Both the position numbers and the translations under genes were made by a program. A model generated the notes under the pieces. It was not told the DNA's origin. It did not search any database and was given only the letters and a program-made list of their open reading frames with translations. A stretch of 64,000 bases of DNA from [Eubacterium] eligens ATCC 27750 (GTDB lineage Bacteria; Bacillota; Clostridia; Lachnospirales; Lachnospiraceae): NCBI RefSeq assembly GCF_000146185.1, contig NC_012778.1:1123001-1187000 (forward strand), given 5' to 3'. Shown piece after piece: positions 8,053 to 10,308 of the stretch (the stretch's first letter is position 1; each line of letters opens with the position of its first letter).

Positions 8053-9123
8053 TTACTCTTCTGTATCTGCTTTCTTCTTAGCCTTAGTCTGCTTAGCATC
8101 ATCAGATGCTTCTGCCTCCTTAACACCGTCCACAATTCCGTAGTGTTCTCTTACTCTTCTGTCAACTTCTTCTCTTATCTCTGGATTATCAAGAAGGAAC
8201 TGCTTAGCGTTCTCTCGTCCCTGTCCAATCTTATTGCCCTCATATGAGAACCATGCTCCACTCTTCTGGATAATACCTGCATTAGAAGCAAGATCAACAA
8301 GATCTCCTTCTGTAGATATACCTTTTCCAAAAAGAATATCAAACTCTGCTTCTCTGAATGGAGGGGCAACCTTATTCTTAACAATCTTTACTCTGGTTCT
8401 GTTACCAATAACCTCACCATTCTGCTTAAGTGTCTCAATCTTTCTTACATCAAGTCTTACAGAAGAATAGAACTTAAGTGCACGACCACCTGTAGTTGTC
8501 TCCGGATTTCCAAACATAACACCAACCTTTTCACGAAGCTGGTTGATAAATATAACAACGCAGTTATTCTTGCTTACAACAGGTGTAAGCTTTCTTAATG
8601 CCTGTGACATAAGTCTTGCCTGAAGGCCTACATGTGAATCGCCCATATCACCATCAATCTCTGCTTTAGGAACAAGAGCTGCAACTGAATCGACAATTAC
8701 AATATCGACTGCACCGGATCTTACCATAGTCTCTGTAATCTCAAGTGCCTGCTCGCCGCTGTCAGGCTGCGAAATATATAAATTATCAATATCAACACCA
8801 ATATTCTTAGCATATACAGGATCCAGAGCATGCTCTGCATCAATAAAACCTGCAATACCGCCTCTCTTCTGTACTTCAGCAACCATATGAAGTGCAACTG
8901 TTGTCTTACCACTTGATTCAGGTCCATATATCTCTACAACTCTTCCTTTAGGAACTCCACCGATTCCCAAAGCGATATCTAGACTTAAAGAACCTGTAGG
9001 AATACATTCAACATTAAGATTAGCTGTTGATTCCCCAAGCTTCATTACAGAGCCCTTACCAAACTGTTTCTCAATATTAGAAATTGCCGCATCAAGGGCT
9101 TTCATCTTATCTTCATTAACCAT
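8053..9123 (-). CDS. recA: Recombinase RecA
   Basis: RecA forms ATP-dependent filaments on single-stranded DNA for homologous recombination and triggers LexA self-cleavage. The 356 residues include the Walker A motif GPESSGKTT, the Walker B region [17 protein letters not shown], the L1/L2 DNA-binding loops ([21 protein letters not shown]) and the acidic, lysine-rich C-terminal tail. The ATG at 9121-9123 is preceded by AAGGAG. The promoter is near consensus and flanked by two LexA boxes. recX follows in the same transcript. Confidence 0.98.
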
Positions 9124-9140
9124 ACCTTAAACTCTCCTTT

Positions 9141-9213
9141 TGAACATGTGTTCGTTTTCTAAATAATATCTTATTATGTCTGCATTGTCAAGAACCTTTC
9201 GAACATTTATTCG
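9141..9213 (-). promoter_or_regulatory. recA promoter flanked by two LexA (SOS) boxes
   Basis: On the minus strand TTGACA (9186-9191) and TATTAT (9163-9168) are 17 bp apart. A LexA box fitting the Gram-positive pattern CGAAC-N4-GTTCG lies just downstream of the expected start point (CGAACACATGTTCA, 9141-9154). A second one (CGAATAAATGTTCG, 9200-9213) lies just upstream of the -35. LexA bound at either or both would block RNA polymerase, so recA-recX should be SOS-inducible. Confidence 0.85.
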
Positions 9214-9402
9214 TTATGTTTGTTTGTATACTGGAATAGTAAAAATATATCATATTATATATATTTTGTAAACGCCTATTTTATATTATTGTATCTTAAT
9301 ATAATATTTTATGCATAAATTTAACAAAATCTTTTTTACTTGCACAACCTCTCGAATGATACCTGTATCAATTCATTGTAATATTGAATCCGATGTCGTT
9401 AT

Positions 9403-9760
9403 AAAACTCACTAAAAGCAATATTCTCTTTGTTTTGTAGGTCTTTTTTTACATTTTAAACAATGTGTCTATGCTTGATGACCCACTAAATCTTTGGAATT
9501 GCATGATGTAGTAGGTCTTTTTTTATATTTCTGCTTGGTAAAAGATAATTCTGAAGGATAAAGACCTACTCAATGCCCACTTCTTTCTCATCTAGTAGGT
9601 CTTCTCGCATATTCACGCCTCCTATACGGCTCTAAAAACCTACTCAACACTCACATCTCACTCACTTAGTAGGTCTTCACATTCCAGCTCGCTCCAGCCC
9701 ACTCTAATCCCAGCAAAAAAGACCTACTCAAGCCATCTTTCAAGCTTAATAGTAGGTCTT
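9403..9760. repeat. Five-unit inverted-repeat array in the recA-pncC gap
   Basis: Each unit is a left arm like AAGACCTACT, a 22-23 nt loop, and a right arm AGTAGGTCTT. Arms are at 9403-9412/9435-9444 (degenerate), 9477-9486/9510-9519 (left arm has two changes), 9561-9570/9594-9603, 9635-9644/9668-9677 (one change) and 9719-9728/9751-9760. Unit starts are 74, 84, 74 and 84 bp apart. Loops and inter-unit spacers differ in sequence. The right arms of units 1 and 2 run into T7 on the plus strand. Units 4 and 5 are preceded by A-runs, so on the minus strand they resemble intrinsic terminators; unit 5 lies 60 bp past the pncC stop. The rest of the 9214-9402 gap is AT-rich and I see nothing else in it. 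Confidence 0.85.
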
Positions 9761-9819
9761 CAACGCCATAGCAAATAATATAGTAAATAATATAATAAAA
9801 CTAATAATTACAATAATCT

Positions 9820-10308
9820 CTACCTGTTAGTCTTAATTATATCAAGAACAAACTTAAGTGCTTCCTTCGTAGACTGACACCTTATCGTGTGCCTGTCGCC
9901 TGACAAATCACATTCTTTAACATGTGTCTCACCCTTATAGCAGCATCCAATATACACAAGTCCAACAGGCTTGTCATCTTCTCTTGAAGGTCCTGCAACA
10001 CCTGTTACAGAAACACTGATATCTGCCTTAGATATTCTTACTGCTCCTTCTGCCATCTGGGCAGCAGTTTCAGCACTTACAGCTTTATACTTCTCAAGAG
10101 TCTCATGCTTAACTCCAAGAATACGTTCCTTCGCCTCATTACTATATGTAATATAGCCCTCTTTAAAAATGTCTGAAGCACCGCTTATATTAACTATAGA
10201 CGAAGCAACCATGCCGCCTGTGCATGACTCAGCTGTAGTTATAGTCAGGGATTTGTTCTTTAATGTCTCAACAAGAGCCTTATCAAGACAGCCGAGATAA
10301 TCAACCAT
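9820..10308 (-). CDS. pncC: Nicotinamide-nucleotide amidase (CinA C-terminal domain protein)
   Basis: The 162-residue protein is the stand-alone CinA C-terminal domain. It deamidates nicotinamide mononucleotide to nicotinic acid mononucleotide for NAD recycling. Conserved blocks are the N-terminal LTITTAESCTGGMVAS with the catalytic serine region, ITYSNEAKERILGV, and KPVGLVYIG. The usual TGxAGPGGG loop reads TGVAGPSREDD here, a small departure. No molybdopterin-like CinA N-domain is attached. It starts 2 bp after the pgsA stop, so it is translated from the rimO-pgsA transcript. Its 3' side carries the inverted-repeat array. Confidence 0.88.
   Translation of the reverse strand: MVDYLGCLDKALVETLKNKSLTITTAESCTGGMVASSIVNISGASDIFKEGYITYSNEAKERILGVKHETLEKYKAVSAETAAQMAEGAVRISKADISVSVTGVAGPSREDDKPVGLVYIGCCYKGETHVKECDLSGDRHTIRCQSTKEALKFVLDIIKTNR

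Follow-up and report, generated by a model that had tools for sequence, protein, structure and literature searches.

The array at the recA–pncC locus

The window analysed here (64,000 nucleotides, C1:1123001–1187000, of the [Eubacterium] eligens ATCC 27750 genome, which has 2,831,389 bases in three contigs) holds an array of five inverted-repeat units, located in the gap between two minus-strand genes which we take from their sequences to be recA and a pncC/cinA-like gene (Table 1). The units, their left-arm starts and the spacings of 74, 84, 74 and 84 bp were reproduced as first described, as were the CAA directly 3′ of the left arm in units 3–5, the T7 on the plus strand after units 1 and 2, and the T-tracts on the minus strand, which are T5 after unit 4 and T6 after unit 5. 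The original prediction also had identical arms in all units; both arms are exact in units 3 and 5 only, whilst the left arms of unit 1 (AAAACTCACT; its right arm begins TG), unit 2 (ATGACCCACT) and unit 4 (AAAACCTACT) carry three, two and one mismatches, respectively. That the loops and linkers have no sequence in common proved true, but they are not random, since they carry a phased A/T rhythm (see below).

Allowing one mismatch at most, the window has 12 occurrences of AAGACCTACT where 3.8 are expected (none of 100 shuffles has as many), eight of them lying in the array, and the two-arm pattern is found at three exact places in the genome, with none for the reversed control. Given this excess over shuffles and the empty reversed control, the array is not a chance assembly. 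Upstream of recA, at 9142–9154, lies GAACATGTGTTCG, which by its motif we take to be a LexA-like SOS box.

Table 1. Coordinates of the features discussed, given as window positions unless a contig is named
Feature	Coordinates	Strand	Description
recA	8053–9123	−	name assumed from the sequence
Segment without match in G013	9322–9826		505 bp; ends slightly different for G007 and G016
Modelled curved-DNA array, entire	9398–9765		368 bp, wedge model
Five-unit array	9403–9760		gap between recA and pncC
Unit 1	9403–9444		degenerate left arm; core ACTCACTA, loop 20, TTGTAGGT
Unit 2	9477–9519		core ACCCACTA, loop 21, TAGTAGGT
Unit 3	9561–9603		left and right arm exact
Unit 4	9635–9677		left arm with one mismatch
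Unit 5	9719–9760		left and right arm exact; minus-strand end runs into T6
pncC/cinA-like gene	9820–10308	−	name assumed from the sequence
TTGGACTT arrays (L193–L197, L162)	G000:C1:215641, 485386, 1373648, 1735536; C2:230673, 345158		

A dispersed, lineage-restricted family of arrays

Sequence comparison places the window array in a dispersed family of mostly intergenic elements that is restricted to certain lineages; further copies lie on the chromosome of the same genome and on its 627-kb replicon. The family core is ACCTACTA/TAGTAGGT; there is also a variant arm pair, ACCTATAA/TTATAGGT, and the G/C cores stand about 31 bp apart. Exact 14-base core pairs were found in 6 of the 22 genomes of the genus, the reversed control giving one place each in G002 and G007. 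A sequence-only unit model built from 60 units (up to 150 candidates scored per genome) matches, on both strands together, at least 52 times in G000, at least 42 in G007, at least 20 in G012, at least 56 in G013, at least 91 in G016 and at least 90 in G017; in the remaining 16 genomes it has 0 to 3 matches, with a best E of 0.02. In 800 kb of two array-free genomes there is a single unit-like match. A de novo scan for pairs of any arm sequence, over 400 kb each, returned six pairs at four places in the own genome, one pair in the array-free G001 and none in the array-free G019.

Among 397 genomes of the family, the 16-base core pair occurs in four, the own genome included, and its reversed control in 13. 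Lone matches in G171 and G404 were rejected as family members, since with 13 genomes matching the reversed control they look like chance; G412, from another genus, is the sole other genome of the 397 with true arrays, which have a 63-bp period. One unit of G412 (L203, 5422) has both arms altered together, ACCGCCTG/CAGGCGGT, a contrast to the genus, where arms mostly change on one side only. Viral contigs were dismissed as carriers: 43 have the 16-base pattern, approximately as many as expected by chance on a rough estimate, and two units within 130 bp occur in 4 of the 43, every one with a degenerate partner. Identity with a CRISPR array was likewise rejected, there being no near-identical repeats and half-sites alone being conserved.

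The original prediction proposed a search of the genome and its relatives for the arm pair, and would have read a lack of conservation and of further copies as the mark of a chance local duplication; the outcome was the opposite, with copies present and both arms and spacing conserved in relatives. As far as titles, abstract openings and passages of the literature show, the array family has no published description. At pyrE (L158 and L173), unit 1 is strongly divergent between species, whilst the preceding flank is nearly identical by eye, so that the difference forms a very local patch of divergence.

Dyads are spaced by whole helical turns

Neighbouring dyads are separated by about 63.5, 74, 84.5, 95 or 106 bp, and short spacings mostly alternate with long ones. 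In the first set, 50 spacings (66 minus those of orthologous arrays, with the tandem array L164 cut to two) are phased with R = 0.95 at 10.4–10.5 bp, the maximum of 20,000 uniform draws being 0.45. Weak units were retained in this set only where a neighbour lay 60–100 bp away; no such rule was applied to a held-out set, in which all 30 spacings are within 1.5 bp of the fixed rule 74 + 10.5n, one of them at 115.5 bp. Of the 20 loci fetched for the held-out set, L317, L318 and L328 were taken out as orthologues or head arrays, and three have one unit each; gaps beyond the 135-bp limit, of which there were two (169 and 169.5 bp), were left out. Six held-out loci are similar to others (L320, L321, L322, L323 and L324 resemble first-set loci, and L309 resembles L327 over 561 bp); when they are dropped, 19 of 19 spacings fit the rule within 1.5 bp, as do 16 of 16 if L315, which has a 108-bp match to L157, is also removed. 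With the variant arm, 18 of 20 spacings obey it; a value near a half turn occurs nowhere among the 100 spacings (50 first-set, 30 held-out and 20 variant-arm).

Orthologous linkers, aligned in single MAFFT runs, differ by one turn at polC (85 versus 95 bp, and 74 versus 64 bp) and between ksgA and tatD (74 versus 84 bp). As read from these spacings, the dyads stand a whole number of B-DNA turns apart. The option of a helically phased binding array, one of those originally put forward, is strongly supported and extended by the analysis, as the spacing rule covers two arm types and six genomes. DNA whose dyads are spaced in this way should bend steadily in one direction.

Predicted curvature and A/T rhythm

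Curvature was estimated as the ratio of contour to end-to-end length, using the Bolshoy wedge parameters, which belong to an old model. The ratio for the window array is 1.83, compared with a mean of 1.16 when 5 bp are added per linker. The 19 first-set arrays average 1.83, versus 1.15 in 36 intergenic stretches from 400 kb of the own genome (stretches cut at 280 bp, arrays measuring 179–533 bp; shuffles were length-matched), and the two most curved of these stretches are arrays themselves. Lengthening the linkers of the 19 arrays by 5 bp lowers the mean to 1.18 and by 10/11 bp leaves it at 1.85; with the half-sites kept and the rest shuffled it is 1.45, and with the half-sites shuffled 1.19. 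Arrays of fewer than three units, L153 and three orthologues were excluded from this first curvature set.

Among first-set arrays, 17 of 19 have a wedge ratio above at least 95% of their own shuffles, and among held-out arrays 8 of 11, the latter set retaining four of the six loci dropped from the spacing test for similarity; L167 and L174 (first set) and L319 and L325 (held-out) look straight, and L321 is marginal. An A/T-tract vector, which needs no wedge parameters, puts 15 of the 19 arrays above 95% of their shuffles; it fails in L149, L158, L164 and L167, of which L164 is strongly curved by the wedge model yet has no tract resultant (p 0.835). A strong planar bend over several hundred base pairs is predicted by the model; phased protein sites might produce such curvature incidentally.

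The A/T content outside the half-sites has a 10.5-bp period, with maxima at 0, ±10.5, ±21 bp and so on from the dyad. Within ±62 bp of the dyad, half-sites left out, its amplitude is 0.105 for 63 first-set units (null maximum 0.034) and 0.102 for 38 held-out units (null maximum 0.046, and no random genomic set above 0.044). Because these flanks reached into neighbouring half-sites, every detected half-site was masked in a later test limited to positions within 50 bp (1000 permutations each), which gave 0.104 for the 63 first-set units and 0.094 for 39 held-out units, against null maxima of 0.040 and 0.057. Linkers alone gave 0.091 (null maximum 0.047) in the first set and 0.089 (0.068) in the held-out set, where the value at 12 bp is 0.096, so the tuning is not to 10.5 bp only; the loop is too short to reveal a period. 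All A/T tests used units with a 21-bp loop, and those of the first set omitted five orthologous loci and cut L164 to three units. About 1.5 turns separate the dyad from the C/G core of the half-site, and at that distance G/C is what the rhythm requires. In base composition, then, loops and linkers without conserved sequence follow a 10.5-bp A/T rhythm in register with the dyads.

The recA–pncC gap in relatives

A comparison of recA–pncC gaps, whose alignment the original prediction had suggested, covered three relatives that have arrays elsewhere in the genome and none at this place: the matched-flank gap is 72 bp in G013 versus 505 bp here, 82 versus 519 bp for G007 and 64 versus 560 bp for G016. 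The two aligned gaps, of G013 and G007, seem the same as those of MAG S34M_St_44 (L012) and Eubacterium sp. AF22-9 (L015); they contain a short hairpin, which in our reading is an ordinary terminator. The new segment starts inside the last codons of pncC, which by eye differ from those of G007 and G013, and the alignment with these two genomes displays a replacement, with no clean insertion and no definable target duplication. The array may have replaced a region that holds the pncC terminator in the two relatives. Since its minus-strand end runs into T6, unit 5 may now terminate pncC as a side role.

Gene neighbours, candidate partners and a one-sided head

The flanking genes of 24 arrays, their strands read by eye and orthologues included, are convergent in 10 cases, codirectional in 13 and divergent in one. 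Besides orthologous loci, the recurring neighbours (at most two genes per side compared) are HTH-Uma2, seen twice, and weak ABC-ATPase and other matches; the gene in an array–gene–array arrangement (L153) matches no Pfam family above the cut-off. The three-unit array at L159 (4912–5129; G000:C1:1467208) has an HTH-Uma2 gene on one side and on the other a CRISPR array, the repeat of which resembles those of Cas12a systems.

HTH-Uma2 (E 1e-10 or better) is present in 8 of 22 genomes, including five of the six with arrays; it is absent from the array-bearing G012 and present in the array-free G004, G010 and G019, and an array lies within about 1.5 kb at 2 of the 12 loci examined (of 14 matches). 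As it only partly tracks the arrays, it was rejected as trans factor. So was a Y1/RAYT-type transposase: PF01797, a model that is not RAYT-specific, matches in 13 of 22 genomes, among them some array-free ones, and has no match in the array-bearing G013.

Many variant-arm arrays begin with a conserved one-sided 25-bp head, RTGATACCTATARGTAGTCGYATTT. With up to three mismatches there are 12 copies in G000, 10 in G007, 8 in G013, 2 in G016, 1 in G017 and none in the other 17 genomes; the head is thus present in five of the six array-bearing genomes and in none of the 16 array-free ones, and head arrays are also found in divergent gaps. By eye, 30 head loci (L277–L306) have no matching second end and no enclosed transposase gene, and no head was seen at the window copy. 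A MITE or transposon would have two inverted ends and a target-site duplication; what was seen is a one-sided head, and the two aligned relatives differ by replacement. In several of the 30 loci another motif, resembling GWCTAYAATG, lies some 50 bp further in, and L291 and L299 share the sequence downstream of the head and differ upstream.

Comparison with known systems and proposed mechanism

PMC2817692 and PMC6379681 describe BIME-2 as interspersed mosaic elements of E. coli that are made of REP units and bind gyrase, and also describe hybrids of two element types among Stenotrophomonas BIMEs; the arrays resemble BIME-2 in being intergenic, dispersed and inverted, with alternating orientation, regular spacing and a variable number of units. 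REP palindromes, according to PMC3733652, are 20–40 bp long and mostly have a GTAG or CGTC tag at one end. The right arm of the arrays does contain GTAG, but the arms are 8–10 bp without an internal palindrome, and the conserved core ends at about +9. Unlike BIME-2, the array family conserves half-sites of 8–10 bp only and spaces them in whole helical turns. The array works like BIME-2 in place and architecture, yet it is no member of the BIMEs, because it has no REP unit and does not track Y1/RAYT transposases.

Strong gyrase sites (phage Mu SGS and the E. coli motif) appear in PMC6379681 as symmetric over about 130 bp, with a G/C–A/T rhythm near 10.5–10.75 bp outside the centre. The amplitude in the arrays likewise peaks at 10.5 bp over the dyad ±62 bp, and also over ±50 bp when all half-sites are masked; unlike in a strong gyrase site, whose centre gyrase cleaves with a 4-bp stagger, the rhythm continues through several dyads with a conserved half-site. 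Among wrapping proteins, RemA has been proposed to wrap DNA and LrpC-class octamers to bind DNA in a nucleosome-like manner (PMC8481266), and bacterial histones and others are oligomers around which DNA is wrapped (PMC8481266, PMC12701072). Wrapping by an oligomer, which we infer for the arrays, would be the feature shared with the sites of these proteins. LrpC prefers curved DNA, and no dispersed family built on a conserved half-site is known to us for LrpC, RemA or the bacterial histones. REPINs, as outlined in PMC8049555, are like the arrays in pairing two short inverted elements with a spacer of high diversity between them. Unlike the arrays, they are built of REP sequences and duplicated by RAYTs. 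To our knowledge no phasing rule exists for REPINs.

We consider it probable (roughly 0.6) that the arrays are curved DNA modules at gene ends which wrap around a candidate protein and work like BIME-2 or a strong gyrase site, although they are built differently. The selected property would be the continuous planar bend: the DNA would wrap around the protein with its A/T minor grooves inwards, the half-sites would supply register or specific contacts, and at gene ends, which are often convergent, the wrap would hold or absorb supercoils, or act as an anchor. DNA gyrase may be the wrapper, as at BIME-2 and at the strong gyrase site of phage Mu, or else the role may fall to a dedicated protein resembling LrpC, RemA or the bacterial histones; since gyrase is presumably found in array-free species too, the distribution of the arrays points to no wrapper. 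More tentative, with the odds somewhat against it, is the wider claim that they form a new class of bacterial chromosomal element, namely lineage-restricted, nucleosome-positioning-like modules in which phase and curvature rather than sequence are selected, and which, bound by gyrase or an oligomeric wrapper, serve as topological anchors at gene ends.

If the proposal is true, a gut Clostridium would possess naturally evolved modules of phased, curved DNA, and orthologous copies would reveal selection on the helical turn itself, 10-bp linker indels being kept and half-turn spacing absent. The arrays would also offer a handle on how bacterial supercoil anchors or wrapping proteins are placed beyond the enteric BIME/gyrase case, and in the window copy such an element would be taking over the 3′ end of a gene.

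Alternative readings

Our order of preference is gyrase or some other wrapper, then a site-specific protein with curvature as an incidental feature, then the end of a mobile element. The second of these would be a phased operator array, in which a dedicated sequence-specific protein binds as one dimer per palindrome, neighbours touch on one face, and the curvature is a by-product of A/T-flanked half-sites. The nearly invariant half-site core, arms that vary independently as binding sites do, the sharp presence or absence among species (6 of 22) and the occurrence of HTH-Uma2 in most array genomes, with two loci adjoining arrays, are consistent with it; the A/T rhythm that linkers keep when all half-sites are masked, and the mismatched distribution of HTH-Uma2, argue against it, and we regard it as unlikely. 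Improbable in our view is a non-autonomous mobile element whose array provides transposase-binding sites, as do the ends of phage Mu or Tn7. Dispersed copies, presence or absence at one orthologous site, the gain and loss of units and the restriction of the head to array genomes would suit such an element, but the head loci offer neither a second end nor a transposase gene, the headless window copy arose by replacement, and the presence of Y1, the only transposase family searched, does not track the arrays. Chance or simple local duplication, for which one may cite the near-identical tandem 160-bp modules inside L164-type arrays, has next to no probability, as the phase rule also holds, in all 19 spacings, for arrays in which no similarity to the first set was detected.

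A multi-hairpin RNA or a two-way terminator array, both options of the original prediction, would account for the A-tract before and T-tract after many units, the low folding energy of the window array (z −4.5 and −4.1) and the purine-rich sense-strand loops in 35 of 42 codirectional units. The stem as a whole also beats shuffles (covariation score 0.156 versus 0.122; 1 of 500 shuffles as high), but changes in the arms of 60 units are almost all one-sided, as expected of independent half-sites, position +9 is unpaired in 33 of the 60, and significant covariation is confined to −1 and +10, where both sides are changed in 17 of 60 units each, and, weakly, +11. The T-tracts have no strand bias (in the 42 codirectional units the sense mean is 3.24 versus 3.60 T in 8 nt, and 3 of 42 have at least six T on the sense strand versus 3 of 42 on the other), so the combination of compensatory stem changes and a T-tract on the transcribed strand that marks intrinsic terminators is not seen in the family, and phasing by DNA turns has no reason in RNA. 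Rfam has no match at gathering score in window positions 9123–9830 (the best, sn2524, reaches 19.2 bits against 44) and none to an array in 11 array loci, the three matches there being read by coordinates as the neighbouring RNase P, FMN riboswitch and L10 leader. We regard a multi-hairpin RNA or terminator array as very doubtful; the multi-hairpin option is not supported, and two-way termination would be a side role at best, although the array stands where two relatives have a putative terminator hairpin, and individual units, unit 5 for one, may yet act as terminators. In alignment A1, the column pairs 6–44 and 17–33, which correspond to −1 and +10 and lie about one turn apart, match between the arms above chance, whereas +9 does not.

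A second array family

Arrays of a second family, TTGGACTT-N23-AAGTCCAA, with a 62-bp period, were kept apart from the main family; they also occur in G007 and G013. Their sense strand is purine-rich in 42 of 46 units, and upstream of thiG a type A array in G007 has its counterpart in a TTGGACTT array in G000. These 62-bp arrays are not clearly curved (ratios 1.06–1.29; three of nine exceed 95% of shuffles, at 1.24–1.29). Two arrays of G412 are curved, with ratios of 3.86 and 2.20.
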